From Desulfuromonadaceae bacterium (GTDB lineage: Bacteria > Desulfobacterota > Desulfuromonadia > Desulfuromonadales > Geopsychrobacteraceae), in assembly GCA_013138655.1 (NCBI GenBank), contig WTCI01000310.1, positions 1-26,756 of the forward strand: a stretch of 26,756 nt of DNA. Reading direction: 5' to 3'. The stretch's first letter is position 1; every line of letters begins with the position of its first letter. Shown piece by piece: positions 6,766 to 24,676 of the stretch. The position numbers were made by a program, and so were the translations under genes. Under the pieces are notes generated by a model that was given only the letters and a program-made list of their open reading frames with translations, searched no databases and was not told the DNA's origin.

Positions 6766-7650
6766 ATGGCGATAATTTTCTCCGGCACATTGAAAAGACT
6801 CTGTTCTGCGTACGTTCTGCTGAGCGCAGTCCTGCTGCTATGTTGCACCGGTGAGGCGGCCTTCAGCCACGATCAGCTGATTCTTGGAATCCATCCTTTT
6901 CATACCGTAACGATTCTCGAAAAAAAATTTACCCCGCTGGCTGAATATTTGAGCAAAGAACTCAATATACCCGTTGTTGTCCGGGTGGGCTCAAGCTATG
7001 CCGAGCACATAGATGCGGTCGGCAGGGATAAGCTCGACATCGCTTACCTCGGCCCGGTCCAGTATGTTCGGATGGTGGATAAGTATGGCAACAAACCGCT
7101 TCTGGCTTGTCAGGAAACCGACGGGACGCCGTTTTTCAGGGGGATCATCATTACTCGGCAAGACAGCCCAAGTGAAAAACTTGCAGACCTGGAATTTGGT
7201 GAGTTTGCTTTTGTGGATATCTATTCAACCATGGGCTATATTCTTCCGGCCTTTCTGTTGCTGAAAGAAAATCCGGCCATCATCAAAGAAAACAACTACC
7301 AAATGCTCAAAACCCATGAAAATGTCGCATTGGCGGTCCTCACCGGAGATTTTGAAGCCGGAGCGGTCAAGGAATCTGTTTACCAACTTTATCGACACCG
7401 GGGGCTGAAGGAACTGGCCCGCACACCGGCTGCTCCCGAGCATCTTTTTGTCGCCCGGGCAAACCTCTCCGCCGGCACCATCAAGAAGCTTCGGAAGGCT
7501 CTCTGGCAGCTCAGCAAAACGAACTCCGGACAGCACATCATGCAAGCGATAAAACCTACGCTGACAGGCTTTGTGCCGGTTGAAGACGAGGCCTATGACG
7601 GCCTGCGTACTGTTATCGAAAGGTTAGCCGAAGAGAGTACTCTCAAATGA
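6766..7650 (+). CDS. PhnD-like periplasmic substrate-binding protein
   Basis: Exported binding protein of the PhnD/SsuA/transferrin-like class (294 aa). The N-terminus is a signal peptide (basic RLCSAY, then a Val/Leu-rich core to about residue 27, cut near GEAAF); LLLCC is not a canonical lipobox, so a lipoprotein is possible but unproven. The mature part starts with LILGIHPFHTV and contains DIAYLGPVQYV, GIIITRQDS and FVDIYSTMGYILP, typical of phosphonate/phosphite-type binding proteins. No ABC permease or ATPase gene is nearby. The stop overlaps the start of the hybrid kinase (ATGA at 7647-7650), so its likely job is to present a ligand to that kinase rather than to a transporter. AGGAGAGG lies 7 bases before the ATG. 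Ligand unknown. Confidence 0.85.
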   Translation: MAIIFSGTLKRLCSAYVLLSAVLLLCCTGEAAFSHDQLILGIHPFHTVTILEKKFTPLAEYLSKELNIPVVVRVGSSYAEHIDAVGRDKLDIAYLGPVQYVRMVDKYGNKPLLACQETDGTPFFRGIIITRQDSPSEKLADLEFGEFAFVDIYSTMGYILPAFLLLKENPAIIKENNYQMLKTHENVALAVLTGDFEAGAVKESVYQLYRHRGLKELARTPAAPEHLFVARANLSAGTIKKLRKALWQLSKTNSGQHIMQAIKPTLTGFVPVEDEAYDGLRTVIERLAEESTLK

Positions 7651-9788
7651 CCGTCCAACGATGTTCCGGCAACGTCAATTACTGGCTGTTGCTAGTGTTG
7701 GTTCTTGCCATGCAGATTATTGTTGCCTGGAGTTCCGTGAGCCATCTGCATGATTCCCAGGTGGCTGAAATCAACAGTATTTCGAAAAAAAACATCTTTT
7801 TTCTGCATGGCCTTATCCAGGATGAATTACAGAATAAAAATTACTCAACGGTCGAATCCCTGTTGCGAAAGTGGGGTAAATCCCATAGCGAGAACATCGC
7901 AAAAGTCGTCCTGACGACGAAAAACGGTTTTACCTTAGGCGCATATCAATGGGACTCAACCCCGGCCCATTCATTGGCCATTGAAGAGGATATTCTTTAT
8001 TCGTACCGGGGCACAGCAACCCTTAAGCTACTGGTCAGCCTGGACAGTGTTTATCAGCGCACAACCCGGATCGCGACGATTTTCGCGGTGGTTATTCTGG
8101 TTTTCACATTACTATTGGTGCAAATGACCCGGCTTTACCTGCGGCAAAAAGCACTGACACAGGCTTTGGATTCACGATCAAGCGCATTGACCAAAACAGT
8201 TGATAACTTAAAAAAGCAGATTGCGGCCCGGACAGCCGCGGAAGAAGCACGGGCTGAAAGTGAATTGAAATATCGAAGCCTGATGGACAATCAAAACGAT
8301 GCCGTTTTTCTTCACCGGGTCAAGGCAGATGGAATTTCCACATTTTCAGAAGTCAACGAACGGGCGATCCGTCAGTACGGCTATACACGGGAAGAATTTT
8401 TACGCCTCAGCCCCCTTGATATTTCTCTGCCGGACGATCTTCAGAAACACCGCGCATCGGGGCATGCGCAACAGCTCCTGGAAAAAGGTCATTTAGTCTA
8501 TGAAATCAGACACATAAAAAAAACCGGACAAATATTCCCGGTTGAGATCAGTGCGACAGTCATAGAATGGCAAGGGGACAAATACGTTTTGTCGGCAGCA
8601 CGAGACATTACGGAGCGCGTACAGATGCAGGAAAAGCAGCAACATCTGGAAAAGCAACTGCTGCACACACAAAAGCTTGAAAGTCTCGGTGTCCTGGCCG
8701 GCGGCATCGCCCACGATTTCAACAATATCCTGATGGCCATTCTCGGTCACAGTGAGCTTGCTGAGCGTGGTTTAGCCAAGGGGACTCCGGTCACCAAAAA
8801 CATCCGGCAGATAAAACTGGCCGCAGAAAAAGCGGCCGAGCTGACCAACCAGATGCTGGCCTACTCAGGCAAAGGGAAATTCGTTATTGAACCACTGGAT
8901 TTAACAACAATCATTCAAGAGATGGAGTACATGCTTTCCGTTTCCATCTCTAAAAAAGCCGTCCTTCGCTACAAACTTGACGAACAGCTGCCAAGCGTAG
9001 AGGCGGATGCAACCCAGATACGTCAGATCATCATGAACCTGGTGATTAACGCTTCAGATGCCATCGCCGACAAAAGCGGGGTGATTAGCCTGTCCACCGG
9101 AGTCATGGCATGTGATCAGAACTATCTGCGGGAAGCCTGGTTGGATGAAAATCAGCCGGCAGGAAGCTACGTGTTTGTCGAAGTGACGGACAACGGCTGC
9201 GGCATGGCCCCGGAAACAACTGCCAATATCTTTGATCCTTTTTTTACCACCAAATTTACCGGCCGCGGTCTTGGCATGTCCGCTGTCCTCGGCATTGTCC
9301 GCGGACATAAAGGGACCATTAAAGTTTATAGTGAACTCGGCAGAGGGACGACATTCAAAGTTCTCCTGCCCGTTTCTGAATTACCGGCAACAAGCGCTGT
9401 TCAAGCAGAAAGTACGGCACCACTGCAAATGACCGGCTTGGCCCTGGTTGTGGATGATGAAGAGCTATTGCGTGAGTTGGGAAAAAACATGCTTGAACTC
9501 TTTGGTTTCACAGTTCTCACCGCGGTCGATGGTCGAGAGGCAGTGACCGTATACAAACAGCACCAAACAGACATCAAGCTGGTTTTGATGGACTTGACCA
9601 TGCCGCATATGGATGGAGAAGAAGCGTTCCGTGAATTGCGCCGCCTCGACCCGAACGTAAAAGTGATTATGAGCAGTGGCTACAATGAGCAGGAAGTCGC
9701 ACAGAAATTTGTCGGCAAAGGGTTACTCGGTTTCGTTCAGAAGCCTTATCAGATATCGGCCTTACAGAATATCATGCAAAAACTTTAG
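7647..9788 (+). CDS. hybrid sensor histidine kinase with C-terminal receiver
   Basis: Inner-membrane hybrid kinase, 713 aa. Parts: membrane segment about 12-32, periplasmic domain about 33-140 with no family I can name, membrane segment about 142-165, a helical linker about 166-205, PAS about 206-325 ending in DITERV, HisKA with His356 in GGIAHDFNN, HATPase_c about 440-580 (NLVINASDAI, DNGCGM, GRGLGMSAVLG), and a receiver about 597-713 with the acidic pair in VVDDEE, phospho-acceptor Asp649 in LMDLTMP, and Lys in FVQKPY. There is no Hpt domain or output domain, so the relay must continue through proteins encoded elsewhere, or the receiver tunes the kinase. Its ATG overlaps the stop of the periplasmic binding protein gene, implying stoichiometric expression of a two-part receptor. 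Confidence 0.92.
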   Translation: MTVQRCSGNVNYWLLLVLVLAMQIIVAWSSVSHLHDSQVAEINSISKKNIFFLHGLIQDELQNKNYSTVESLLRKWGKSHSENIAKVVLTTKNGFTLGAYQWDSTPAHSLAIEEDILYSYRGTATLKLLVSLDSVYQRTTRIATIFAVVILVFTLLLVQMTRLYLRQKALTQALDSRSSALTKTVDNLKKQIAARTAAEEARAESELKYRSLMDNQNDAVFLHRVKADGISTFSEVNERAIRQYGYTREEFLRLSPLDISLPDDLQKHRASGHAQQLLEKGHLVYEIRHIKKTGQIFPVEISATVIEWQGDKYVLSAARDITERVQMQEKQQHLEKQLLHTQKLESLGVLAGGIAHDFNNILMAILGHSELAERGLAKGTPVTKNIRQIKLAAEKAAELTNQMLAYSGKGKFVIEPLDLTTIIQEMEYMLSVSISKKAVLRYKLDEQLPSVEADATQIRQIIMNLVINASDAIADKSGVISLSTGVMACDQNYLREAWLDENQPAGSYVFVEVTDNGCGMAPETTANIFDPFFTTKFTGRGLGMSAVLGIVRGHKGTIKVYSELGRGTTFKVLLPVSELPATSAVQAESTAPLQMTGLALVVDDEELLRELGKNMLELFGFTVLTAVDGREAVTVYKQHQTDIKLVLMDLTMPHMDGEEAFRELRRLDPNVKVIMSSGYNEQEVAQKFVGKGLLGFVQKPYQISALQNIMQKL

Positions 9789-9868: not shown

Positions 9869-9897
9869 TTGACTTTTATTTGGCAGATGTCTAATGT
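9869..9897 (+). promoter_or_regulatory. predicted sigma-70 promoter of the GntR-family gene
   Basis: TTGACT at 9869-9874 and TAATGT at 9892-9897 are separated by 17 bases, matching a sigma-70 -35/-10 pair. The -10 box lies inside the 26-bp palindrome at 9886-9911. The start codon of the regulator is at 9932. Confidence 0.55.
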
Positions 9898-9911
9898 CGA
9901 CATTAGACATC
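9886..9911. promoter_or_regulatory. 26-bp perfect palindrome, probable GntR operator
   Basis: The half-site GATGTCTAATGTC is followed at once by its exact reverse complement, centred at 9898/9899, with no mismatch over 26 bases. It covers the predicted -10 box and ends 20 bases before the regulator's start codon. GntR/FadR proteins bind palindromes as dimers, so negative autoregulation is the simplest reading. I found no second copy before the aminomutase or synthetase genes; if they are controlled by this regulator, it may be through readthrough from this promoter. Confidence 0.7.
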
Positions 9912-9931
9912 AAGAAGGAGCTGGGACGGTT

Positions 9932-10570
9932 ATGCCAATTGTCAAAAAAACTTATAAAGATCAGGTTGTTGACTATGTTTATCAACTCCTGTTGACGAAC
10001 GAGCTGGGCCCGGGAGATCAATTGAAAGAGAGCCTGCTGGCTGAGCAGATGGGGATCAGCAGGGCACCGATCCGTGAGGCGATGAAAGAGCTGATCATGA
10101 ACGGTCTGGTCGATTATCGTCCCCAGGTGGGCAACTTCATTCCTGTTTTGTCCCCCAAGCAGATTGTCGACAGCTACACCACACGTGGTGTCCTTGAGGG
10201 TTACGCGGTGATGGAGACCTGTGATCAGTTTTCCGCTGAAGAGGTCGACAAGCTCGAAAACCTGACCGAGCAGATGGAAAATTATGCCCATAAAAAGAAC
10301 CACAAAATGGTCATCGAGGCCGGCGGAGAATTTCACGATCTCTTGATCAGTAAGAACAATAACGTGCAACTGCTGGAATACACGGACCGTCTCAGTTTGA
10401 AGCTGCATATTCTGTTTTTTAAATATTTGGGAAAGCTCTACGGCCCCTCTGAAGTTGGCCGACGGCATCGGGAAATTGTCGAAAGTGTTAAATCAAAAGA
10501 TCTGGGGCTGATTGAAAAGGTTATTCGGCAGCATTACGTCGAAACGGGGTCGAAAATAGCGATTCTTTAA
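9932..10570 (+). CDS. GntR-family transcriptional regulator, FCD (FadR/VanR) type
   Basis: DNA-binding regulator of 212 aa. The N-terminal winged helix (about 1-75) has the family pattern LGPGDQLKESLLAEQMGISR followed by APIREAMKELIMNGLV. The C-terminal FCD ligand domain (about 85-210) keeps the metal/ligand-binding residues: EFHDLL, RRHREIVES and RQHYVETG. FCD regulators usually sense small carboxylates or amino-acid-like effectors. I start at ATG 9932 (AAGGAG at 9914-9919, rather distant), because the frame upstream to 9797 runs through the promoter and palindrome and lacks family similarity. It lies 85 bases before the aminomutase gene on the same strand, so it probably controls that cluster; this is inference. 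Confidence 0.92.
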   Translation: MPIVKKTYKDQVVDYVYQLLLTNELGPGDQLKESLLAEQMGISRAPIREAMKELIMNGLVDYRPQVGNFIPVLSPKQIVDSYTTRGVLEGYAVMETCDQFSAEEVDKLENLTEQMENYAHKKNHKMVIEAGGEFHDLLISKNNNVQLLEYTDRLSLKLHILFFKYLGKLYGPSEVGRRHREIVESVKSKDLGLIEKVIRQHYVETGSKIAIL

Positions 10571-10655
10571 TATTTGTGGGTTCAGAGCAAGTTAACTCCG
10601 AAATTTTACATCTCAATCATATAGAAGATAAGCCTGCAACATCACGGAGGAAAAG

Positions 10656-11732
10656 ATGGCAGAAGAATGGGTTCAGCAGATGCAGAACGAAGTGAACACA
10701 CTTGAGAAACTCGAAGAGTACATCAATGTCTCTGACGACGAAAGGGAAGCGATTCAGACCCTGAAAACCAAATGGGGAACAACCCCCTATTTTGCGTCGT
10801 TGATGGACAAAGATGACCCGAAATGCCCGATCCGGATGCAAGTACTTCCGTCGATGAAGGAAAAAATCAATGAGTTCGGGATGGATAACTACCTGGTGTG
10901 GAAAGAAAACCGCGCTACGGAAGAAGTTCGTCCGGACAGTATCGCCCGTCAGTACAAAGACCGGATTGCTTTTACCGTTGTCGAGGTCTGTGGAATTTAC
11001 TGTCGCCACTGTTTCCGCAAAGAACTGGTGGTCGATCAGAATCTGCAACTGCGCTTTGATGCTGACGAAGGCCTGGCCTGGATTGCCGAGCATAAGGAAA
11101 TCCGCGATGTACTGATTACCGGTGGCGATCCGCTGCTGTTGTCGGATGAAAAACTGGAGTACTTGATCACCAAACTGCGCGAAATGCCGCACATCGAGAT
11201 GATCCGTATCGGTTCACGTCTGCCGATTGTTCTGCCGCAGCGGATTACCGAAGGCTTGAAAAAAGCAATCGGCGGTTTTCACAAGGTTCCGGTGTGGATC
11301 AACACCCAGTGTAATCACCCGAAGGAGATCACCGAAGCAACGGAAAAAGCCGTTTACGAGCTGCTGAGTTGCGGGATCAATGTGGGGAACCAGGCGGTGC
11401 TGCTTAAGGGGATTAACGATGACGTGCCGACATTCAGGGAACTGCACCAGAAACTGCTGCGTACCCGGATTCGCCCCTACTATGTTTTTTATTGCGAGCC
11501 GGCTCCGGGGATCGACCATTTCCGTACCCCGGTGGAAAAGGGTGCTGAGCTGATTCGTGACGCGCTGCGTGGACACACCACCGGTCTGGCACAACCGATG
11601 TACGTGCTGGCGACCAATATCGGCAAGATTCCACTGATGCCAGACTATTACATTGTTGATAAAAACGAGAAGGAATACACGCTGAGAAACCACCTGGGAG
11701 AGACCACCAAAATTCCGAATATTCCTGAATAA
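10656..11732 (+). CDS. KamA-family radical SAM/PLP aminomutase, substrate uncertain
   Basis: Radical SAM enzyme of the lysine/glutamate 2,3-aminomutase group, expected to move an alpha-amino group to the beta carbon using a 4Fe-4S cluster, SAM and PLP. The 358-aa protein has CGIYCRHC (Cys112, 116, 119), Arg121 at the carboxylate-binding position (Arg134 in clostridial lysine aminomutase), GGDPL (156-160), and PLP-lysine 324 in NIGKIPLMPDY. By hand alignment, the two aspartates that hold the substrate epsilon-amino group in lysine 2,3-aminomutase (Asp293, Asp330) correspond to Glu281 and Ala319 here, so lysine is an unlikely substrate. The known glutamate-enzyme pair (Lys/Asn) is not clearly present either. 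No acetyltransferase gene (ablB) is adjacent; a glutamine synthetase gene follows 80 bases later. GGAGG precedes the ATG. EpmB-like tRNA/EF-P modification is less likely. Confidence 0.85.
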   Translation: MAEEWVQQMQNEVNTLEKLEEYINVSDDEREAIQTLKTKWGTTPYFASLMDKDDPKCPIRMQVLPSMKEKINEFGMDNYLVWKENRATEEVRPDSIARQYKDRIAFTVVEVCGIYCRHCFRKELVVDQNLQLRFDADEGLAWIAEHKEIRDVLITGGDPLLLSDEKLEYLITKLREMPHIEMIRIGSRLPIVLPQRITEGLKKAIGGFHKVPVWINTQCNHPKEITEATEKAVYELLSCGINVGNQAVLLKGINDDVPTFRELHQKLLRTRIRPYYVFYCEPAPGIDHFRTPVEKGAELIRDALRGHTTGLAQPMYVLATNIGKIPLMPDYYIVDKNEKEYTLRNHLGETTKIPNIPE

Positions 11733-11747
11733 CAGGCCCCTAAAATA

Positions 11748-11781
11748 ATTTATGGAGGCTGCTGTCACAGCCTCCATAAAT
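11748..11781. other. 14-bp perfect hairpin between the aminomutase and synthetase genes
   Basis: ATTTATGGAGGCTG at 11748-11761 pairs perfectly with 11768-11781 across a CTGTCA loop. There is no T-run after it on the + strand, and the ribosome site of the next gene (AAGGAG, 11799-11804) is 17 bases further. It could be a partial terminator, a processing or stability element that sets the ratio of the two proteins, or the end of the upstream transcript. Confidence 0.6.
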
Positions 11782-11812
11782 ACATTGTACATCCCCGCAA
11801 GGAGAGGCACAG

Positions 11813-13234
11813 ATGAATCTACAAAGACTACAGGAACTCATCCAGGAAAAAAAGGTCAAAAATATCGACCTGAAGTATGTCGACCTGGTCGGACGCTGGT
11901 ACCATATCAATTTTCCGGCCCGGCGGCTCGATTATGTCATGGAGCACGGCATCCCTTTTGATGGTTCCAGTATCCCCGGAATGCGTAACGTGGAATCGGG
12001 TGACCTGATCCTGATGCCGGATATTTCCACTGCCCGTTATGACAATTTCAATCCGAATCCCACCGTGCAGATTATCTGTTCGATCCGTGAAGCCGATTCC
12101 CCGGCGGGGTATAAAAAAGATCCCCGCAGTGTCGCGGAAAGATCATTTAACTATCTAAAAGAAAGCGGGATTGCCGATGAAATATTGTGGATCCCGGAGT
12201 TCGAATTCAACCTGTTCAGCGAAGCTGTCTATTACAACACCAAACATAAAGCGGGCTACCGGCTTTCCACCATGGAAAATAAGGAAGCCCTGCCGTTTGA
12301 TTACGAAGATTCCGATGCCACGGCTCTGACACACCGCAAAGGCTATCATCTGGATCGGCCCTATGATCGGAACGCAAGTGTCCGGGAGGAGATCTCCGAT
12401 TATATTGAAGAGCATATCTGCCCGATCCGTTACCACCACCATGAAGTCGGCATCAGTTCACAGCAGGAGATTGAAACCGAACTGGCTCCATTCCCGGAAA
12501 TCGCCGATAACATCATGTATATCAAGAGCGCCATTCAGCAGATTGCCCTCAAGCATGGGTTGACCGCAACCCTGATGCCGAAGCCGATGTACGAAGAGGC
12601 CGGGAACGGGATGCATTTCCATATGCTGCTGAGAAAAAACGGGAAAAACATCCTCTATGAGAAAGGCGGTTATGCCGATCTTTCAGACGATGCCCTGCAT
12701 TTCATCGGCGGGATTCTCCACCATGGTAAGTCGCTGGTTGCCCTGACAAATCCAAGTACCAATTCCTATAAACGTCTGCTGCCCGGATTTGAAGCACCCG
12801 TCAAGCTGATCTTCGGGCTGGCCAACCGCAGTGCCGCAATCCGCATTCCCAAATATGCGACAACTGAAGAAAACAAGCGCTTTGAATTCCGCACCGGCGA
12901 CGCAACCTGTAACCCCTACCTGGCGACCAGCGCGCTGATCATGGCCGGTATCGATGGTATCAAAAACAAGATCGACCCGACCGCGCATAATCACGGACCC
13001 TTCGATGAAAATATTTTCGACTGGCCGGAAGAGAAACGCAATGCCCTGCCGGCGATTCCGGCCAACCTGGAAGAGGCGTTACAGGAATTAAAAAAAGACC
13101 ACGACTATCTGCTGCAAGGCGGCGTGTTCAGTGAAATGCTGATTGATGGGTTAATTGAAGAAAAGATGAAAGAAGTGATCGCTGTCAATGAGCGACCAAC
13201 CCCGTACGAAATGAATCTCTATTTCAACCTTTGA
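11813..13234 (+). CDS. divergent type I glutamine synthetase without the adenylylation tyrosine
   Basis: ATP-dependent ligase of the glutamine synthetase I fold, 473 aa (469 in E. coli), AAGGAG 8 bases before the ATG. Active-site residues are kept: Asp50 (FDGSS), Glu129/Glu131 (PEFEF), Glu211 and Glu219, His268 (GMHFH), Arg321, Glu327 (GFEAP), Arg339, Arg344 and Glu358/Arg360. It has the region of the beta-type insertion. Three departures stand out: the adenylylation motif NLYDLP reads NIFDWP (Phe402 for Tyr397); the usual RFPD after the catalytic Arg reads RTGD; and the conserved GYFPVPP tract reads GYHLDRP. GlnE therefore cannot modify it at that site. Position behind the aminomutase suggests a specialised ligase, perhaps acting on a beta-amino acid; ordinary glutamine synthesis cannot be excluded, so I give no glnA symbol. 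Confidence 0.9.
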   Translation: MNLQRLQELIQEKKVKNIDLKYVDLVGRWYHINFPARRLDYVMEHGIPFDGSSIPGMRNVESGDLILMPDISTARYDNFNPNPTVQIICSIREADSPAGYKKDPRSVAERSFNYLKESGIADEILWIPEFEFNLFSEAVYYNTKHKAGYRLSTMENKEALPFDYEDSDATALTHRKGYHLDRPYDRNASVREEISDYIEEHICPIRYHHHEVGISSQQEIETELAPFPEIADNIMYIKSAIQQIALKHGLTATLMPKPMYEEAGNGMHFHMLLRKNGKNILYEKGGYADLSDDALHFIGGILHHGKSLVALTNPSTNSYKRLLPGFEAPVKLIFGLANRSAAIRIPKYATTEENKRFEFRTGDATCNPYLATSALIMAGIDGIKNKIDPTAHNHGPFDENIFDWPEEKRNALPAIPANLEEALQELKKDHDYLLQGGVFSEMLIDGLIEEKMKEVIAVNERPTPYEMNLYFNL

Positions 13235-13256
13235 TGACTTTTTGCGACGCCATCAA
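13231..13256. repeat. dispersed hairpin repeat, copy after the synthetase gene
   Basis: GACTTTTTGCGACGCCATCA at 13236-13255 is identical to the reverse complement of 19952-19971. Short arms TTGATG / CATCAA make it a hairpin that overlaps the synthetase stop codon. A shorter near-copy (GCGACGTCATCAAT, one mismatch) lies just after the prfC stop at 2983-2996. The rest of the gap to 13313 holds a weak CGGCGC/GCGCCG hairpin at 13270-13291 between two convergent genes. Confidence 0.65.
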
Positions 13257-13313
13257 TATTGGTCCTTTTCGGCGCTGTCCGCGTTGCGCCGGCCTGACTT
13301 AACGCATGGGGTA

Positions 13314-13871
13314 TCAGTTATTTTCGGACACCGGACTTCCAGAGAAGGGGGACTTCAACACACTCTGGTGCCTGGGCGTCGAACCCTTCAGAACGGATTT
13401 TTTCACCCCCTTGGGCTCAAAGATAAACTGCCATTCGCTGTAGCGGGTCTTGTCGGAAAAATTCTTGTTTTCCTCAGAAAAGTTATTCTTCTTAAACGGC
13501 TCCAGTTCACTCCTGCTTTTCACCCCCTGAATCCGTCCCACCGGATCCTTGATCAGCACCCAGTCTTGACCAGTCATCGGATCCGGATAAAGTTTGCGTA
13601 AGTGTCGAACTGTGGCAACCGAGCGTGGGTCTTTCGTCAGGTTTTTCAGGTCGGACGGAAGCATCGCCCGGGCACCGGCTCGGGAGGTTAGATAATAGGA
13701 CTCAATTGCCCGACGATACTGATCCCCACGCCAGAGCAGTTCCTGCTCCTTGGCGCGCTGCACGATAGTCTTCCAGGTGGCTCCGGCAATCCCCGACAGC
13801 AAGCCAAGGATGGTTACAGCAATCAACACCGACATGAGAGCGGCACCATTTTTTGTTTGTAGATATTTCAT
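13314..13871 (-). CDS. atypical type II secretion/type IV pseudopilin-like protein
   Basis: Predicted inner-membrane pseudopilin of 185 aa. The N-terminus MKYLQTKNGAALMSVLIA followed by VTILGLLSGIAGATW is a short basic leader with a G/A prepilin-peptidase-like site after Gly9 and a hydrophobic helix. The Glu normally at position +5 of the mature protein is Ser14 here. The rest is soluble, with YPDPMTGQDWVLIKDP, a motif I associate with GspG/PulG-like proteins of Geobacter relatives, and a Lys/Ser-rich tail. ATG at 13871 puts the leader at pilin length; the frame is open to 13934 but those 21 residues look unrelated, and neither start has a strong ribosome site. No secretion or pilus genes are adjacent, so it is an isolated minor (pseudo)pilin candidate. 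It is divergent from ttcA. Confidence 0.72.
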   Translation of the reverse strand: MKYLQTKNGAALMSVLIAVTILGLLSGIAGATWKTIVQRAKEQELLWRGDQYRRAIESYYLTSRAGARAMLPSDLKNLTKDPRSVATVRHLRKLYPDPMTGQDWVLIKDPVGRIQGVKSRSELEPFKKNNFSEENKNFSDKTRYSEWQFIFEPKGVKKSVLKGSTPRHQSVLKSPFSGSPVSENN

Positions 13872-14071
13872 CGCAAGTCGACTGAAAGCTGGGTAAAAAT
13901 ATGTAAAACTACATTCTCTGTAATGGTTCCCCATCTACAGATTTTCTTCAAGTTATTTACCAAGAATACGGATTCTTTTCCAGGGCAGCCTCCTGGATAT
14001 CCCGGCAGAATCTTGCCTTTTTAAGCGGATTCATTTACTAATGCCAGTTCACATTCGGGAGGAAGGATCAA

Positions 14072-14824
14072 GTGGCAGACCTTTTTCAACACATCAAAAG
14101 ACTGACCGGCAAAGCGATCGGGGATTTCCAACTGATTGAAGATGGTGACCGGATCGCGGTCGGGGTCTCAGGGGGGAAGGATTCCTACACCCTGTTGCAG
14201 GTTCTGGAGGCTTTGCGCCGAAAAGCCCCGGTCAGGTTCGATCTGATTGCGGTCAACGTCGATTCGGGGTTTTCCGGCTATCGCAAGGAATTGATCGAAC
14301 AGTATCTGCAGGAGCAGCAGTTCCCTTACCGGATGGCCTCTGCGGATTGTGACCGGATCATCAAAGAGAAACGCCGCCCCGGTTCATCCTATTGTGCTTT
14401 CTGTGCCCGCCTGCGTCGCGGTATTCTTTACACTCAGGCAACAGAGCTGGACTGTAACAAGGTTGCCCTGGGACATCATCTGGATGACTTTATCGAAACC
14501 CTGCTGCTGAACCAATTTTATGCCGGCACCCTGGCGGCAATGAGCCCCAAGCTCCTTGCGGATAACGGCAAGCAGACTGTCATTCGACCACTGGTCTATG
14601 TTGAAGAGTCCGATATCACTGAATACAGCAGCGTGGCAAACTACCCGATCGTCTGCTGCGCCTGCCCGGTCGCCGGGGATGAAGATCAGCAGCGGCAAAG
14701 AATGAAACAGCTGATCAAGCAACTTTCCGGGGAAATTCCACAGATCCGTAACAGTATGATCAGTGCACTGGGGAATGTTCATCCCCGGCATCTGCTCGAT
14801 CAACAGTTGCAGAAGCGGGGGTAA
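14072..14824 (+). CDS. ttcA: tRNA 2-thiocytidine biosynthesis protein TtcA family
   Basis: ATP- and Fe-S-dependent tRNA thiolase that makes 2-thiocytidine at position 32. The 250-aa protein has the PP-loop SGGKDS (33-38), the CAFC pair (Cys108, Cys111) and a later cluster CCACPVAG (Cys195-198) that supplies further cluster cysteines, plus ALGHHLDDFIETLLLN typical of TtcA. It is shorter than the E. coli protein (311 aa), mainly at the ends, which is common in this group. GTG at 14072 is preceded by GGAGGAAGGA, a strong ribosome site. The gene converges on the receiver-J-domain gene, with only 22 bases between stops and no clear terminator. Confidence 0.9.
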   Translation: MADLFQHIKRLTGKAIGDFQLIEDGDRIAVGVSGGKDSYTLLQVLEALRRKAPVRFDLIAVNVDSGFSGYRKELIEQYLQEQQFPYRMASADCDRIIKEKRRPGSSYCAFCARLRRGILYTQATELDCNKVALGHHLDDFIETLLLNQFYAGTLAAMSPKLLADNGKQTVIRPLVYVEESDITEYSSVANYPIVCCACPVAGDEDQQRQRMKQLIKQLSGEIPQIRNSMISALGNVHPRHLLDQQLQKRG

Positions 14825-14846
14825 CGGGTTCTGATTTAAACCAGGG

Positions 14847-16742
14847 TCAATCTTCCTTGCGCATGAATTTTTTCAACAGGCCTTCGGATTGCGTGATTTG
14901 TTCACGACGCAGATTGATCAGCCGCAATTCACGTAAAGCCTCTGTACAATCCGGGTTTGCCTGGACAGCCATTTCGAATGATTTTTCCGACTGCCGCTCT
15001 TTCCCTTGCACATGGTAAATATGCCCCAGGTAAAGATGGGTTAAATCAAGGCCGGGATTCAATTCCCGGGAAGCCAGCAAGACTTCCAGCGCACGGTTTT
15101 GTGCCGCAGTTTTTTCCGCTGAAGCTTTAAAAAGTGCCCAGGCAAAATGGGTCATATACTCAGGCTCTTCAGGGCTCAACTCGATCGATCGCTGCAAGGG
15201 TCTAACCGCGGCCTTGAAACGCCGTAGGTTCAGCAAAACCCGACCTTCCTGATAAGCCGTCTCGGCCTCAATCACCTGGTTGATATTGATCGATTTTTTC
15301 GGTCCATTGACCAGCTCATCCAGGTAACTCGAACAGGTTGTGGGGTCGCTGAGCACCGTGTAGGCCTGGGTCACATAGTGAAAAAGTTCGTTGATTTTTG
15401 CGCTCATTTCTCGCGAAAGGCCACAATCGAGAAAACGGTCCGGATGATACTCTTTGGCCAGCTTATAATAGGCACGCCGCACTTCGCTGCTGCCGCATTG
15501 ACGGCCGACCCCCAGGGCCTTGAAATAGTCAGAATCCATCACCCGCCGGTAATCATCCAGAATCTTGCGGCGCAGCTGTTCGTCAATCGGCCGCACTGCT
15601 TGACCCGGCAGATCAGACATTTCAACCTGCTCAACGATTTCACTGCTTTCGAGCATTTCAGAAATCAATAAAGCGGACAGGACCCTCTGTACTTCACGAC
15701 GCGCCAGCGGGTGCTGTTCAAGAATTTCTGCCAAAGTGAACGCTCCCAGGCAACTCCGGAAAACTTCCTCGCCCCGCCGGTTCAGCTCAATATCCTGAAA
15801 ACGGTATTTGGGATCTGCGACCTGTTTCAGATAAAGATTATGAAACGGCTGCAGATAAGAATCCAGCTGCCGTCCGGTCCAATAGTGACTGATCCCCTGC
15901 AGAATCAGCGAGGCCGGAGAGAGTTTAATCGAGGTGACAGATTTCTTGAAATCTTTACCGGGAACAAACTGGCTGGTCCCGTCCTTCCACTTGAAGGTCG
16001 AGAGGAGTTTTTCCGTGACCTGTCGGGCCAGGGATTCGTGCAGATCCTGTGGCGTCACGAGGCCCATTTCAATCAACTCTGTCCCCTGTAATCGTCCGGA
16101 CTCCTTGCTGCGCTCAACCGAGGTATCACAGTCAAGCTGGGGAATCACCCCCTCACTGACCAACATCCGGCCAAGACATTCATGCAACACGTTGGAACGG
16201 GAAAAGATCGGGTAGCCTTCCTTGATATAGATAATTTTTTTTGCTTCAGCCCGCTGTAAATGCAGCAAACCAGTCGCTTTTTTACTATAAAGTTCATGCA
16301 GCAACAGCGGGATACTATGCTCGTCCAGTTGCTGGAGCTGGTCTTTTACGGGGGGTTCTGACGGTTTTTCACCGGGGAAAAGCTTGGCGATCAGGTTATG
16401 AAGATCGGGGGCAGTAAAAGGTTTGAGCAGAAATTCATCCGGGCCGTAATCCAGCTTGGCCTGGGCAATTTGCTCAGGGCTATGGAACATGGAGGTAATC
16501 ATAACCACCGGAAGTTCTTTGGTTTTTTCATGTTTTCGCAGGGCACTGCAGACGGCCGGGCCGGAAATTTCCGGCATATTGATATCGATCAGAGCTAGAT
16601 CAAACTCCTCGGTCAACAGCATCTGCAACCCGGCCGCACCCCGATCAACGGTTTTCACCTGGTGACCGGCCGCGGACAAAACCTTTTTCAGGAGGGAACG
16701 TAATCCCTGGTCATCATCGATGACTATTATTCTTTGGCCCAT
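14847..16742 (-). CDS. receiver-PATAN-DnaJ-TPR multidomain regulator
   Basis: Cytoplasmic protein of 631 aa joining four parts. Residues about 3-120 are a response-regulator receiver (acidic pair DDD at 9-11, phospho-acceptor Asp53 in LIDINMP, Lys in LLKPF). About 135-390 carries PATAN/DUF4388-like sequence (LYSKKATGLLHLQ, IIYIKEGYPIFSRS) found in deltaproteobacterial signalling and motility proteins. About 405-475 is a J domain with the HPD tripeptide in EYHPDRF, expected to stimulate a DnaK-type chaperone. About 495-600 is a set of TPR helices. ATG at 16742 is preferred because GAGAGAGGA lies 8 bases upstream; ATG at 16751 would touch that site. The start is one base after the glnE stop (TGA-A-ATG), so translation is coupled to glnE. 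Partner kinase and target are unknown. Confidence 0.88.
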   Translation of the reverse strand: MGQRIIVIDDDQGLRSLLKKVLSAAGHQVKTVDRGAAGLQMLLTEEFDLALIDINMPEISGPAVCSALRKHEKTKELPVVMITSMFHSPEQIAQAKLDYGPDEFLLKPFTAPDLHNLIAKLFPGEKPSEPPVKDQLQQLDEHSIPLLLHELYSKKATGLLHLQRAEAKKIIYIKEGYPIFSRSNVLHECLGRMLVSEGVIPQLDCDTSVERSKESGRLQGTELIEMGLVTPQDLHESLARQVTEKLLSTFKWKDGTSQFVPGKDFKKSVTSIKLSPASLILQGISHYWTGRQLDSYLQPFHNLYLKQVADPKYRFQDIELNRRGEEVFRSCLGAFTLAEILEQHPLARREVQRVLSALLISEMLESSEIVEQVEMSDLPGQAVRPIDEQLRRKILDDYRRVMDSDYFKALGVGRQCGSSEVRRAYYKLAKEYHPDRFLDCGLSREMSAKINELFHYVTQAYTVLSDPTTCSSYLDELVNGPKKSININQVIEAETAYQEGRVLLNLRRFKAAVRPLQRSIELSPEEPEYMTHFAWALFKASAEKTAAQNRALEVLLASRELNPGLDLTHLYLGHIYHVQGKERQSEKSFEMAVQANPDCTEALRELRLINLRREQITQSEGLLKKFMRKED

Positions 16743-16743
16743 T

Positions 16744-19700
16744 TCAGGCATCCTCTCTCGGCAAGAGATCTTGCTGCGGATTCAGGTAGCGTTCAAACAG
16801 TACCCGAATTCCCCCCGTGATTGTCCGATATTCTTCCAGAAATTCCTTTTCCGGCACAACCCCTTTTTTACCATAATCAAGACTACGGCTTATTTTTCTC
16901 AGACTTTTCGGTTCATTAGAGAGGCCATTGATCGATTGATCGTGCAACAAGCGCAACTTGTTTTCCAGTCGGCGCAAAAACTTGTAGCCCTGTATCAACT
17001 GCTCGGCATCAGCCTGTGAAAGCAGCTGATGATCCGCCATCACCTGCAACAGTTCCAGGGTGTTCTGTCGGCGTAGCGCCGCAATCTCTTTTGCATGCAA
17101 CAGCTGCAGGTACTGGGTGATAAATTCCACATCGACCATGCCGCCACGGCCGGTTTTGATATTGAAATGGTCTTCTGTTTCCCGCGCAATTTCCTTTTCC
17201 ATCCGGAACCGCAAGCGAAAGATTTCCGGCTGCAGGTCAGTCGGCAGCGGCCGGTCAAAAGCCAATTCCGCGATCAGCCTTTGCAGTTGGTCAGCAAAGG
17301 CGGCAGGTCCGCAAACCACGCGAGCCTTGGTCATTGCCTGCCGCTCCCAGGATTGGGCGGATTCCTGATGATAGCGTTGGAAGGCGTTCAAGCTGGTGAC
17401 CAGTGGCCCCTGGTTGCCGGAAGGGCGCAATCGGGTATCGATTTTATAAACAAAACCCTCGCGAGTCACCAGCGTCAAAACAGTAATAATCCGTTGCGCC
17501 AACTTGGCAAAATATTCATGATTACTGATCTGACGAAAACGCTGCGGATCGGTTCCGGAAACCGGGCGGGTCCGCCCCTCGCCGGCATAGATGAAAATGA
17601 TATCCAGATCTGAATGGTAGTTCAGTTCAAGGCCGCCCAATTTGCCCATGCCGACAATCGCAAAGGCTGTTTCCTGTTCTGTTACCTCATCCGCAAAAGG
17701 AGCCCCGAAGCGGCCGAGCAATTCCTGGCGGGCCATGGCGACCGACTGTTCCAGGCAGACCTCTGCGAGCCAGGAGAGTTGTTTAGTCCCCTCGCCCTGT
17801 TTCATCTGGCCGTGCAGGTCATTAAGCGCTACCCGCAGAAACTCTTCATTGCGGAAACGACGTAAGGTATCCAGTTTCAGTTCATAATCATCGGCCAGAA
17901 AAACCTGTTCTTCCAGTTCATCCGCCAACTGTTGCCGATATTTGACAGCGACTGCGTAGGATCGGGAAACCATGGTATCAAGCAACTCCGGGCGTTGGAT
18001 AAAGATCCGTGACAGAAGTTGACTTGAACCGAACAGAGCGACCAAAAGTTTAACAATTTCAGGGTTTTCTGCAAGTAGAGAAAAGAAGGAGGTGCGTGCC
18101 CGGATGCCGCGGAGAAATGTCTCCAGGTTATTCAACGCCTGATCGGGATTCGGTGAATCGAGCAGTTCACCCATCAGCAGGGGGGTAATTTTTTCCAGAC
18201 AGCGTCGCCCACGCCGGGTTAACCGCCAGTGCGGGTCTTCGCCCCGCAGCAGGGTCAAGCTTTCGTAGGCCGCATCAGGGTTACTGAACCCATTTTCTTC
18301 CAGCAGGTCTTTGACCAGATCCGGGTCCGACTCAGTAGCAAAGATGAAACTGACCTCGGGGCGGACGGGCTGCTCTTCTTCAGCTGCTGAGTGAAACAGA
18401 TCTTTGAAGATGTGACTGACCCCCTGACGCTGCCGCTCCAACTCTGCAGCAAAGCTTTCACTGTCAACAAAACCGCTGCGGCGGGCCAATGCCAGGAATT
18501 CTTCGTCCCGGGTCGGCAGCGAGTGAGTCTGCTGTTCCTGCACGATCTGAATCCGGTGTTCCACGGTGCGCAAAAACCGATAGGCTTCGCTGAGCAGGCG
18601 TTGCTCTTCAGCGGTAATCAGGCTCTCCTGCTCCAGCAGTTGCAGCGTCTGCAAAGAATTGCGGAACTGCAGCTTTGGCTTGGTTCCGGCATTCACCAGT
18701 TGCAGCGCCTGAATAAAAAACTCGATTTCGCGGATGCCGCCCCGGCCAAGCTTGAGGTTACGCTCCCGTTCCTGCTCCCGGCCAAGGCTGACATTGATCT
18801 TCTGCTTCATCAACTTGATATCCTCGATCATGCCGAAATCGAGGTAGCGGCGATAAATAAACGGTTTCAGCCGTTGTAACAGTTCCAGTCCCAAAGGGAT
18901 TGAGCCGGCCACCGGCCGAGCTTTGATTAATGCCGCACGCTCCCAGCTCTGCCCCCAGGATTCGTAATAGGTTTCGGCGGCATCCAGAGAAATTGCCAGA
19001 TCTCCACTATTGCCGTCCGGGCGTAGCCGGGTATCAACACGAAAGACAAAACCGTCCTCGGTGACCTGATTGAGAGCTTGGGAAACCATTTCGGCCAGCT
19101 TGACAAAATAGCGATGCAGGCTGATCTTTTCACCGCGGCTGCCACCGCTGGTTTCACCATGATTGGAAGAATAGCAATAGATGAGATCAATATCGGAAGA
19201 GAAGTTGAGTTCATGTCCCCCGAGCTTGCCCATGCCGAGGACAGTCATTTCGGCAAGACGTGAGTTACCATTTTCAACTGTTTCCAGCGGTTGTCCGTAC
19301 TCCGCCTGCAATTGCCAACTGCAGATTTCATAGGCCCGTTGCAGGCTGGCTGCAGCCAGGCCCGACAACTCGGCCGTCACCTCTTCGAGGTTTGCCATGC
19401 CGCACAGATCGCGGCTGCCGATGCGTAGAATCTGCTCGAATTTATCGTGCCGCAACCCGGCCTTAAGTGCAAAGAAATCGCTCTCATCAGGGATGGTGCG
19501 ATGCAGGCCCGCCAGCATCTCTGCTTCGTCGCACGTTTGATCAATCCGGCCTGTAACCAGTAACAGGGTAAAATATTCCGGCTTGCGACAGAGGATTGAA
19601 GCGAGAAATGGTGAGCCACCCAGAACCGTCAGCAATTGCCGGCGGCGGACCGGCTGCTGCAGAATAGTCACAAATTGCTCCCGATCGACGACGGAAATCA

Positions 19701-19932
19701 GCCGCTCCAGACCATTCAGGGCAAGATCTGGATCGGCTGAATGCAGGGCATCGGTGAGAATCCCCGTCAGCAGTTCAAAGTCCTGCAGAACCTCATCGAT
19801 CAGCTGCAGATTGGTTTTGACCCGCTCACCGTTGGCCCAAACCCGGCTGTCGAGCCAGCAGATCAACGCCGGTTCTTCCTCTGTCCCTAACAGGGCAAGT
19901 TTATCGGTTATCTCCTGTTGAGCCTTCTGCAT
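16744..19932 (-). CDS. glnE: bifunctional glutamine synthetase adenylyltransferase/deadenylase
   Basis: Controls type I glutamine synthetase by attaching AMP to a tyrosine when nitrogen is plentiful and removing it when nitrogen is short, guided by PII. At 1062 aa it is slightly longer than the E. coli enzyme (946 aa). Two nucleotidyltransferase domains are clear: GMGKLGG (233-239) with Asp247/Asp249 in SSDIDLI for the N-terminal half, and GMGKLGGLELN with SDLDIIF in the C-terminal half, each followed by a helical bundle. AGGGG precedes the ATG. It lies between mtnA and the receiver-J-domain gene on the same strand. The synthetase at 11813-13234 lacks the target tyrosine, so GlnE must act on another GlnA encoded elsewhere. 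Confidence 0.96.
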   Translation of the reverse strand: MQKAQQEITDKLALLGTEEEPALICWLDSRVWANGERVKTNLQLIDEVLQDFELLTGILTDALHSADPDLALNGLERLISVVDREQFVTILQQPVRRRQLLTVLGGSPFLASILCRKPEYFTLLLVTGRIDQTCDEAEMLAGLHRTIPDESDFFALKAGLRHDKFEQILRIGSRDLCGMANLEEVTAELSGLAAASLQRAYEICSWQLQAEYGQPLETVENGNSRLAEMTVLGMGKLGGHELNFSSDIDLIYCYSSNHGETSGGSRGEKISLHRYFVKLAEMVSQALNQVTEDGFVFRVDTRLRPDGNSGDLAISLDAAETYYESWGQSWERAALIKARPVAGSIPLGLELLQRLKPFIYRRYLDFGMIEDIKLMKQKINVSLGREQERERNLKLGRGGIREIEFFIQALQLVNAGTKPKLQFRNSLQTLQLLEQESLITAEEQRLLSEAYRFLRTVEHRIQIVQEQQTHSLPTRDEEFLALARRSGFVDSESFAAELERQRQGVSHIFKDLFHSAAEEEQPVRPEVSFIFATESDPDLVKDLLEENGFSNPDAAYESLTLLRGEDPHWRLTRRGRRCLEKITPLLMGELLDSPNPDQALNNLETFLRGIRARTSFFSLLAENPEIVKLLVALFGSSQLLSRIFIQRPELLDTMVSRSYAVAVKYRQQLADELEEQVFLADDYELKLDTLRRFRNEEFLRVALNDLHGQMKQGEGTKQLSWLAEVCLEQSVAMARQELLGRFGAPFADEVTEQETAFAIVGMGKLGGLELNYHSDLDIIFIYAGEGRTRPVSGTDPQRFRQISNHEYFAKLAQRIITVLTLVTREGFVYKIDTRLRPSGNQGPLVTSLNAFQRYHQESAQSWERQAMTKARVVCGPAAFADQLQRLIAELAFDRPLPTDLQPEIFRLRFRMEKEIARETEDHFNIKTGRGGMVDVEFITQYLQLLHAKEIAALRRQNTLELLQVMADHQLLSQADAEQLIQGYKFLRRLENKLRLLHDQSINGLSNEPKSLRKISRSLDYGKKGVVPEKEFLEEYRTITGGIRVLFERYLNPQQDLLPREDA

Positions 19933-19951: not shown

Positions 19952-19979
19952 TGATGGCGTCGCAAAAAGTCCGCCATCA
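19952..19979. repeat. dispersed hairpin repeat, copy between mtnA and glnE
   Basis: The sequence 19952-19971 is the exact reverse complement of 13236-13255 (20 bases). With the following CGCCATCA (19972-19979) it makes a perfect 8-bp stem (TGATGGCG / CGCCATCA, 12-base loop) and includes the mtnA stop codon. It may act as a 3' mRNA structure between mtnA and glnE. Confidence 0.7.
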
Positions 19980-21057: not shown

Positions 21058-21166
21058 GTAGGGGCGCCGCTTGCTGCGCCCTTCTCTGGTGAAATAACGC
21101 AGGGCGCAGCAAGCGGCGCCCCTACGCTGATGAAACAACGCAGGGCGCGGCAAGCGGCGCCCCTAC
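21058..21166. repeat. three-copy GC-rich palindromic repeat between gatB and mtnA
   Basis: A 24-base unit occurs three times: inverted at 21058-21081, direct at 21102-21125 and direct at 21143-21166 (core GGGCGC, A or G, then GCAAGCGGCGCCCCTAC). The first two form a perfect 24-bp stem. The last two sit in a 40-base tandem repeat, 21086-21125 and 21127-21166, with three mismatches. The gatB stop codon (21163-21165 on the - strand) is inside the last copy. It is a dispersed GGGGCG...CGCCCC palindrome family; mobility is inferred, not shown. Confidence 0.85.
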
Positions 21167-22599
21167 TCGGAAAGTTTCTTTTTCAACAACTGATTTACCA
21201 GGCCGGGATTGGCCTTCCCCTTGCTGGCTTTCATCACCTGGCCGACAAAAAAGCCCATCAGTTTCTCTTTGCCCGCCTGGTATTCAGCAACCTGGCCCGG
21301 GTTGGCAGCGATCACCTCGGCGACGATCACCTCGATAGCGCCGGTATCGGTCATCTGCTTGAGACCTTTTTCCTCGATCACCTGATCGGCCGTCTTGCCG
21401 GTCTGCCAGATCTCCTCAAAAACCGTCTTGGCGATCTTGCCGGAGATGGTATTATCCTCGATCCGCTGCAGCACTCCGGCCAGCAACTTCGGTGTCACCG
21501 GACAATCGGCAATGCCGATCCCGTTTTCATTGAGGGCCCGCAGCAGCTCACCCATGACCCAGTTGGCACAGGTTTTCGGGTGGTTGTGCAGGGCCACCAG
21601 CGCCTCAAAATATTCCGCCACCGGGCGCTCCGCTGAAATCACTCCGGCATCGTAGGCCGCCAGCCCCAGTTCCCCCTGGTAGCGCTGTCGTTTGGCCGCG
21701 GGCAACTCAGGAAGCGTGCCGCGGACCCGTTCGACCCATGCGTCGGAAACCACCAGCGGCACCAGGTCAGGATCAGGGAAGTAACGATAATCGTGAGCTT
21801 CCTCTTTGCCGCGCATCGACCGGGTGACCCCGCTGTCGGCATCAAACAGCCGGGTTTCCTGTACCACCCTGCCGCCATCGTCAATAACCTCAATCTGCCG
21901 CTCGACCTCGTATTCGATTGCCTGCTTGATGAAGCGAAAGGAGTTGAGGTTCTTTACTTCGGCTCGGGTGCCGAACTCCTGCTGACCCCAGGGACGAACC
22001 GACACGTTGGCATCACAGCGGAAGGAACCTTCCTCCAGATTACCGTCGCAGACGCCGAGATAAACGACAATCGGGTGCAACTGTTTCAAATAGGCAATGG
22101 CCTCATCGGCGCTGCGCATATCCGGTTCGGAAACCACTTCCAACAACGGTGTACAGGCCCGGTTCAAATCGACCGAAGAGCTGTTACCATCGGCATGAAG
22201 CAATTTACCGGCGTCCTCTTCCATGTGAATGCGGGTGATACCGACCTTCTTTTGACCATGTTCTTCGGTTTCGATCTCCAGCCAGCCGTGCTCGCAGATC
22301 GGCAACTCGAACTGGGAGATCTGGTAACCTTTCGGCAGGTCGGGATAAAAGTAGTTTTTCCGCGCGAAAATCGACCGCGGGGCGATCCGGCAGTTGGTCG
22401 CCAGGCCCGTCTTGATGGCATCTTCCACCACCTGCCGATTCAACACCGGCAGCGCCCCCGGCAGGCCCAGGCAGACCGGGCAGGTCTGGCTGTTCGGCGC
22501 TTGTCCGAATGCGGTGGAACAGCCGCAGAAGATTTTGCTTTTGGTGGTGAGCTGAACATGCACCTCCAGCCCGATGACGACCTCATATCTGGAATCCAT
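21163..22599 (-). CDS. gatB: aspartyl/glutamyl-tRNA amidotransferase subunit B
   Basis: Subunit of GatCAB that binds the misacylated tRNA and phosphorylates its Glu (or Asp) side chain before amidation. The 478-aa protein has the typical start [13 protein letters not shown], zinc-binding cysteines in FCGCSTAFG and [10 protein letters not shown], the kinase-site region with [18 protein letters not shown] and [15 protein letters not shown], and the C-terminal YqeY-like tail (about 330-478) ending in [17 protein letters not shown] lies 9 bases before the ATG. It follows gatA after a 99-base gap holding a palindrome. Its last codons run into the next repeat, which provides the TAG stop. Confidence 0.96.
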
Positions 22600-22622
22600 T
22601 ATTCAAGATCCTATCTTTTTCC

Positions 22623-22688
22623 GTCGGGGCGAACCTCGTGTTCGCCCTTTCGATTCGCACGCTGGGCGAACACAAGGTTCGCCCCGAC
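22623..22688. repeat. palindromic repeat between gatA and gatB
   Basis: The left arm 22623-22647 (GTCGGGGCGAACCTCGTGTT then CGCCC) pairs with 22664-22688 at 24 of 25 positions across a 16-base loop. It has the same GGGGCG...CGCCC design as the gatB-mtnA repeat but a different middle, so it is a related, separate family. Confidence 0.8.
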
Positions 22689-22698
22689 ACACCCATGA

Positions 22699-24156: not shown

Positions 24157-24209
24157 AATTTCTCCAGAATCGCTTACAACGATTTTGTTATTTCTCATCT
24201 ACCCTGTCA

Positions 24210-24330
24210 GGACTGTTGATAAATGCTCAGATACAAGGCTTGCGCAGGTCTTGAACCACAGACGCAGCAGTGCTACGTCGAGGATTCGGGGACAAGCATA
24301 ACGCCGCAGATGGGTTTTTAGCGACAGTCC
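24210..24330. repeat. about 120-bp element with inverted ends between gatC and gatA
   Basis: GGACTGTTGATAAA at 24210-24223 matches the reverse complement of the end at 24317-24330 at 12 of 14 positions. The middle has no reading frame with protein similarity. The end sequences look like multicopy intergenic elements I recall from Geobacter-type genomes, but I cannot confirm copies elsewhere from this window. Confidence 0.5.
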
Positions 24331-24336
24331 CTTCCA

Positions 24337-24624
24337 TCACTCGATGACTTTAGGGACTTGATAACAACTGCCGGCTGTCGATGGGGCATTTTGCAATGCC
24401 CGCTCGATACCGATCGACGCCTGTACCTGATCCTCACGGAAGGCATTCTCCATCGGCACTGCGTGCGCCGTCGGCTCGACATCTTCAGTGTCGAGTTCAT
24501 TCAATTTATCAACGTAACCGAGGATTGCATCCAGCTGCCCGGTCAGCTCATCAAGCTCAGTCGGTTCCAATGCCAACCGGGCTAACCGCGCCACATGCTC
24601 CACTTCCTCACGACTGATTTTCAT
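24337..24624 (-). CDS. gatC: aspartyl/glutamyl-tRNA amidotransferase subunit C
   Basis: Small scaffold subunit that wraps around GatA-GatB and helps the complex fold. The 95-aa protein has the family start MKISREEVEHVARLARLAL, the central LGYVDKLNELDTEDVEPTAH, and the C-terminal RED...ALQNAP segment. ATG at 24624 fits the MKIS start and has GGAG 8 bases upstream; GTG three bases earlier is possible. It is the first gene of gatCAB and follows mrp after a 140-base gap. Confidence 0.94.
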   Translation of the reverse strand: MKISREEVEHVARLARLALEPTELDELTGQLDAILGYVDKLNELDTEDVEPTAHAVPMENAFREDQVQASIGIERALQNAPSTAGSCYQVPKVIE

Positions 24625-24676
24625 CACACTTTCTCCGCTGTTGCCAGGTGAATATTCCAGCTCACCGATATATCAA

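Follow-up and report, generated by a model that had tools for sequence, protein, structure and literature searches.

Three adjacent genes, gntR, kamA, and GSA (the last encoding a type I glutamine synthetase, GS), lie in that order on the + strand of a 26,756-nucleotide stretch of DNA from a Desulfuromonadaceae bacterium (assembly GCA_013138655.1, contig WTCI01000310.1). This whole stretch is called the window here, and the genome is a 2.45 Mb draft in 364 contigs, 93% complete. An earlier, sequence-only reading of the window had named an FCD/GntR regulator, a KamA-family protein, and a GS on the same strand, and scoring against Pfam and NCBIfam cut-offs confirmed all three (Table 1). The coordinates begin at the probable ATG start codons. 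That of gntR was chosen by reading the sequence, the list of open reading frames holding a longer, TTG-started frame from 9797; those of kamA and GSA are preceded by GGAGG and AAGGAG, respectively. A public record that is nearly identical to this stretch (L034) encodes a GntR protein of 100% identity and KamA and GS proteins of 99% identity. Bin titles are unreliable when taken singly: L034 is titled a Chloroflexi bin, and Desulfuromonadaceae, Desulfuromonas, Geopsychrobacter, and Desulfuromusa appear in the titles of the records that follow it in closeness.

Table 1. Features of the cluster, of the surrounding window, and of related loci (window positions unless a locus is named).
Feature	Location	Strand	Remarks
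Sigma-70-like gntR promoter	9869-9895	+	TTGACT at 9869-9874; the -10-like TCTAAT/TAATGT overlaps the operator
Perfect 22-bp palindrome TGTCTAATGTCGACATTAGACA, predicted GntR operator	9888-9909	.	0 chance matches expected in the window
gntR, FCD-domain GntR regulator, 211 aa	9935-10570	+	PF07729, 60 bits; PF00392, 54 bits; over cut-off
kamA, radical-SAM aminomutase of the Glu281/Ala319 subfamily, 358 aa	10656-11732	+	TIGR00238, 287 bits (cut-off 199)
RNA hairpin between kamA and GSA	11748-11781	+	core GGAGGCTG...CAGCCTCC at 11754-11775
GSA, type I glutamine synthetase, 473 aa	11813-13234	+	TIGR00653, 477 bits (cut-off 429)
Dispersed repeat TGACTTTTTGCGACGCCATC	13235-13254	+	directly after the GSA stop, where relatives have GSB
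206-aa open reading frame	13314-13934	-	no Pfam/NCBIfam match at E 0.001
glnE, glutamine synthetase adenylyltransferase	16744-19932		same window as GSA
Dispersed repeat GGACTTTTTGCGACGCCATC, second window copy	19953-19972		
GSB, reference copy	L034, 3401-4717		starts 13 bases after GSA
KamA2 examples	L041, 3140-4417; L055, 5745-6959; L077, 5721-6956; others		
Aminotransferase with operator-like palindrome or in-cluster	L156, L157, L159, L147, L039, L044		

KamA retains Cys112, Cys116, and Cys119 of the CxxxCxxC motif, Arg121, and Lys324, which place it in the KamA family. Alignment to lysine 2,3-aminomutase (LAM; KamA/AblA, 2a5h), with which it shares the fold family and about 40% identity, revealed that the cluster cysteines, the pyridoxal phosphate (PLP) lysine, and the carboxylate arginine Arg134 are conserved, whereas Asp293 and Asp330 are replaced by Glu and Ala, respectively, and the C-terminus is shorter. 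We take Asp293 and Asp330 to be the residues that hold the side-chain amine of lysine, and Arg134 to be the arginine for the substrate carboxylate. The window KamA remained below the cut-offs of the lysine, glutamate, and arginine aminomutase equivalog models, scoring 343 of 525 bits for LAM, 334 of 650 bits for glutamate 2,3-aminomutase (EAM; TIGR04368), and 369 of 600 bits for arginine 2,3-aminomutase (TIGR04468), the best-scoring of these models; no arginine genes were noticed nearby.

The two pocket positions were surveyed in 123 distinct KamA-family frames of at least 250 residues from the loci of relatives. Glu/Ala was found in 94 of the 96 sequences of the window's subfamily, a set that includes several close kin and thus does not count independent events; of the other two, one has Glu/Asp and one is cut off. 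Twelve other family members, including the AblA of locus L114, have Asp/Asp, and both relatives that exceed the EAM cut-off have Lys/Asn, presumably the pocket residues of that enzyme. The remaining frames comprise 11 with Met/Gly, one with Ser/Ala, and one that is cut off. In a midpoint-rooted tree of 49 rows (22 of the 96 subfamily sequences and other family members), the Glu/Ala enzymes formed a single clade apart from LAM and EAM (support 100/100). LAM and EAM were both rejected as identities of the window enzyme, on its Glu/Ala pocket and on the scores given above; by these tests, sequence places KamA outside both groups.

The 11 Met/Gly frames belong to a second KamA-family group of about 400 residues, KamA2, which stands beside kamA in 5 of the 80 loci described below; three were scanned and none attained an NCBIfam equivalog cut-off. 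Another family member (L107, 2231-3859), with the Ser/Ala pocket, lies beside a GSB-kamA pair and is closest to the EAM model (343 of 650 bits).

The pocket of KamA fits either an amide, as in glutamine, or a short cation, such as ornithine. Compared with Asp, Glu extends by one more carbon, and the amide nitrogen of glutamine would sit one atom nearer than the amine of lysine. Since KamA has Glu at the position of the EAM lysine, the side-chain carboxylate of glutamate would be disfavored. Between the remaining candidates, glutamine is favored by the glutamine-related genes found around kamA.

These neighbors were counted at 80 loci, the best (74-99% identity) of 172 KamA relatives confirmed in GTDB species genomes, as genes within about 6.5 kb of kamA. 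Most were assigned by similarity, and NCBIfam scoring was applied to selected copies there (L036, L077, L065) and in further regions described below (L114, L116, L127). GSA and/or a second synthetase, GSB, was found beside kamA in 45 of the 80 loci; the KamA-GS adjacency, which the earlier reading had proposed to look for across genomes, thus recurs. GSB is near kamA in 43 loci (51-100% identity to the L034 copy) and GSA of the window type in 12; neither was found in 35. Loci titled Desulfuromonadales and kin have the order gntR-kamA-GSA-GSB, many of those titled Desulfobacterales or Deltaproteobacteria have GSB-kamA, and in two titled Desulfonatronum (L098, L099) GSB is convergent with kamA. 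Because GSB may thus lie downstream, upstream, or convergent, the link between KamA and GS is not one inherited block. KamA relatives are also present in Desulfoscipio geothermicus and Prosthecochloris.

Co-occurrence was examined in 60 relatives, including the window genome, and separately in a 297-genome sample of the phylum. Among the relatives, GSB (76-100% identity) was present in 15, and this KamA in all 15, in fragments in G023 and G026. GSA (at least 86% identity) was present in nine, and in two pieces in G020; all ten have this KamA. In G020 (L007/L036), the middle of GSA is gone, and KamA and GSB are intact. The phylum sample yielded few positives: KamA (at E 1e-120) in nine genomes, the window genome counted, and GSB in three.

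Other genes at the 80 loci point in part to glutamine and, in a few cases, to solutes. At least one gene of the GlnHPQ system is near kamA in 13 loci, an asparaginase-like gene in five, and glutaminase in two (L077 and L110). NCBIfam cut-offs are exceeded by the L077 glutaminase and, in L036, by GlnH, GlnP, and GlnQ; the asparaginase-like protein of L036 fails its own. The proVWX genes adjoin kamA in two loci (L065 and L066); in L065, ProV and ProX are over their cut-offs, and ProW is below (344 of 439 bits). Outside the 80 loci, 20 regions of relatives' genomes were examined, several of them chosen for two close KamA matches. Among these, kamA adjoins a ProX gene in L127 (438 bits, cut-off 215), and in L114 and L116 ablA and ablB are followed by kamA; AblA of L114 scored 759 bits (cut-off 525), and AblB of L114 and L116 scored 321 and 343 bits (cut-off 205).

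These neighborhoods bear on two of the alternatives. It is very improbable that KamA is a plain LAM with an unrelated GS gene beside it. Some sources do label its relatives "lysine 2,3-aminomutase", and its identity to Asp/Asp family members reaches 43%; however, both lysine-binding aspartates are substituted, an AblA that exceeds the LAM cut-off stands with AblB next to this KamA in L114, and the KamA-GS association recurs. A second alternative, unlikely in our view, is that KamA acts on some other short cationic or amide amino acid (ornithine, 2,4-diaminobutyrate, or asparagine), with the GS genes serving a step at which we do not guess. A lone pocket Glu would accommodate a short cation no less than an amide, the asparaginase-like gene recurs at five loci, and the acid substrate of GSB does not seem to be bound like glutamate (see below). 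Against this stand the glutamine-specific neighbors that exceed curated cut-offs, namely the L077 glutaminase and the GlnH, GlnP, and GlnQ proteins of L036.

In GSA, the listed catalytic residues for metal, ATP, ammonium, and glutamate are conserved in 11 of 11 copies, as in a type I GS. Arg321 and Gly265 are kept, and the protein belongs to a wider GlnA group. It deviates at N264 (Ala), S266 (Asn), and K352. Phe402 occupies the position of the adenylylated tyrosine (Tyr397), and Phe is present there in 11 of 11 GSA proteins, a departure from GlnE-regulated GSI-beta enzymes. Among the more distant homologues listed (61-67% identity, several named from Cloacimonetes), residue 264 is Ala (48) or Pro (58), and 91 of 106 have Phe at 397. 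The roles of GS residues 264, 265, 321, 327, 359, and 397 are taken here as we understand them from the family. GSA thus has the look of a glutamine synthetase that escapes control by GlnE, in a window that also holds glnE (Table 1).

A canonical glnA, about 40% identical to GSA, was found in 9 of 9 GSA-bearing relatives other than the window genome, which itself has a C-terminal glnA fragment at a contig end with Tyr at the adenylylation site. Because canonical glnA co-occurs with it, GSA looks like an extra synthetase and probably does not carry the main load of nitrogen assimilation, in line with the sequence-only reading. The description of this GS as "divergent" survives in part: the protein passes the GlnA cut-off, and it does look like a second GS beside a canonical one. 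Its proposed role as a beta-glutamate enzyme is not supported, since Arg321 and Gly265 are kept and nothing found marks it as one. The window GS looks ordinary, and the unusual synthetase is GSB of the relatives.

GSB retains the listed catalytic residues but has Ala in place of Arg321 and Arg in place of Gly265; both substitutions are present in every one of the 120 best homologues (of 3296). Among the copies in the loci, Ala is present at 321 in 40 of 41 (one has Gly) and Arg at 265 in 41 of 41. Its scores (332 and 354 bits) do not reach the type I GS cut-off of 429, and the relative of solved structure that scores highest is a methanogen GlnA (8ool). From these residues, GSB should be an active ammonia ligase that binds its acid otherwise than glutamate is bound. 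GSB is absent at both glutaminase loci, L077 and L110; from these two loci, GSB and glutaminase may catalyze opposing reactions at one and the same amide.

The GSA stop codon of the window is followed directly by a dispersed repeat at the place where relatives have GSB. This repeat has 41 copies in the draft genome at no more than one mismatch, on both strands; it also follows GSA closely, in reversed orientation, on the 3-kb contig L045. Window positions 13235-14900 have no blastn similarity to the GSB-bearing L034. The gap could equally reflect recombination loss at the repeat or misassembly there.

The sequence-only reading had proposed that KamA converts glutamate to beta-glutamate, which GSA (or, in relatives, GSB) would then amidate to beta-glutamine. 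A GS is reported to act on beta-glutamate in Methanohalophilus (excerpts of PMC1224877), the acid-binding site of GSB appears to be rebuilt, and the midpoint-rooted tree unites the Glu/Ala clade with the two EAM sequences to the exclusion of LAM (98/97). However, the Glu281 of KamA occupies the position of the EAM lysine, its EAM score is about half the cut-off, no GSA or GSB adjoins kamA in the 35 loci noted above, and an EAM that exceeds the cut-off coexists with this KamA in two of five genomes searched (those of L103, Desulfoscipio geothermicus, and of L083), the two enzymes thus occurring within a single genome (G353, G355). The glutamate route is therefore unlikely, and less likely than direct conversion of glutamine to beta-glutamine.

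The predicted GntR operator is a perfect palindrome that overlaps the -10 region of a gntR promoter, which was read by eye from the sequence and was not listed by a consensus promoter scan of the window. The palindrome is single in the window genome at up to three mismatches. A match was found in 13 of 14 genomes searched and a reversed control pattern was matched in 6 of the 14, so that weak single sites may be chance. Of the 15 gntR loci with an upstream stretch long enough to include this position, 14 (all but L044) have TTGACT or TTGACA ahead of the operator. A GntR relative adjoins kamA in 19 of the 80 loci and an RpiR-type regulator in seven.

Additional palindromes (2, 2, and 3 mismatches) were found in G022, G035, and G028, about 50-120 bases upstream of a class I/II aminotransferase gene, and in two further genomes (L039/L147 and L044) this gene lies within the cluster itself; together, these sites and in-cluster copies tie the aminotransferase to the presumed GntR regulon in relatives. 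Since the gene also occurs in relatives that lack this KamA (e.g., G001, G016, and G018) and is missing from the window genome, it was not counted as a core part.

The conserved RNA hairpin between kamA and GSA was compared in the window and nine aligned loci of the 12 GSA loci. Compensatory changes, on both sides, were found in 6 of 14 pairs, and none of 500 shuffles scored as high. No T run is present on the + strand. The hairpin may set the ratio of the KamA and GSA products. In eight further loci, Rfam matches were limited to a tRNA and, in L097, a lysine riboswitch that lies about 180 bases downstream of kamA.

A catabolic alternative would run the other way. Imported beta-glutamine, or a relative of it, would be converted by KamA to L-glutamine and passed to glutaminase or the aminotransferase, with GntR sensing the import. 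GlnHPQ, RpiR, KamA, and glutaminase are grouped in L077 and L110, an FCD/GntR regulator has its palindrome over the -10 region, and a like palindrome precedes the aminotransferase in three genomes. ATP-consuming synthetases such as GSA and GSB would be unexpected in a breakdown operon, however, and the ablAB and proVWX neighbors, where found, indicate solutes. We regard this reversal as unlikely.

The gene families, the recurring neighborhood, the pocket residues, and the palindrome are observed, and the likeliest account of them, which we hold tentatively and with less than even confidence, is that the cluster forms a module under local control in which a glutamine 2,3-aminomutase, KamA, produces the compatible solute beta-glutamine (3-amino-5-amidopentanoate). 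From it we infer the substrate, the product, the direction of the reaction, the action of the regulator, and the role as follows. GSA, which would not be adenylylated at the usual tyrosine, would supply L-glutamine. KamA, with its 4Fe-4S cluster, S-adenosylmethionine (SAM), and PLP, would shift the amino group of glutamine from C2 to C3 to give beta-glutamine, a compound that proteins do not incorporate and that could accumulate. GntR, bound at the palindrome over the -10 region, would repress the operon until released upon binding a metabolite. In relatives, GSB might carry out a further or alternative amidation, perhaps of beta-glutamate to beta-glutamine, with its rebuilt acid-binding site. 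More doubtful still is the combined proposal that KamA is a glutamine 2,3-aminomutase that makes beta-glutamine directly in bacteria and that GSB is a new ligase whose binding arginine has moved from 321 to 265.

Several observations weigh against the beta-glutamine module. The changes in GSB are not explained by a beta-glutamine pathway, and GSB was not found in the window genome, neither after GSA nor elsewhere. The Glu/Ala pocket could hold ornithine or another short cation equally well. There is no GlnH in the window, and 30 of the 80 kamA loci lack every glutamine-related gene that was sought; some of the loci without GS or glutamine-related genes are short contigs (e.g., L043, L067, and L111), and others are not short. 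One of the three GSB genomes of the phylum sample (G294) has no KamA at E 1e-120. FCD regulators and an aminotransferase in the presumed regulon could also signal breakdown, and the window genome has no gene for this aminotransferase at E 1e-100. The solute setting put forward earlier is supported in part by the ablAB, proVWX, and ProX neighbors of a few loci, and it is weakened by the fact that ablA or ablB is near none of the 80. Rfam, at gathering cut-offs, found no family in the window.

The proposed module can be set beside systems already described. Beta-glutamine is a solute of Methanohalophilus, where it is made from beta-glutamate by a glutamine synthetase; the proposed end product and the involvement of a GS are common to both, whereas the Methanohalophilus enzyme uses beta-glutamate and, in excerpts of the same source, no aminomutase is named for it and early NMR work in methanogens is described as opposing a glutamate aminomutase as the source of beta-glutamate (PMC1224877). 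EAM likewise performs beta-amino-acid chemistry and is linked to osmoprotection in print: by excerpted accounts, sodium riboswitches are associated with ablA and eam (PMC9337991), and in Moorella under blue light EAM belongs to the most up-regulated clusters, which was interpreted as osmoprotection (PMC7835215). The abl operon for N-epsilon-acetyl-beta-lysine also pairs two enzymes for a beta-amino-acid solute, the first of KamA type; the second is an acetyltransferase instead of a synthetase. Neither a glutamine aminomutase nor bacterial beta-glutamine genes are named among the titles and abstract starts listed in searches of open-licence literature.

Elsewhere in the window, upstream of the cluster, a gene for a PhnD-like periplasmic binding protein overlaps that of a hybrid histidine kinase by 4 bases (6766-9788), an arrangement kept in L033; the two are a possible ligand-sensing pair. 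The 206-residue frame behind GSA has an N-terminus that we take to be prepilin-like. Reading frames named gatB, gatA, and gatC, presumably for a glutamine-dependent amidotransferase, lie on the - strand (21163-24627).

If the beta-glutamine reading is true, the cluster, which recurs in Desulfuromonadales and other sulfate or metal reducers, would provide a genetic marker for beta-glutamine and would add a specificity not seen before to a radical enzyme family that has been studied in depth. The name "lysine 2,3-aminomutase" that some KamA relatives carry would then need correction.

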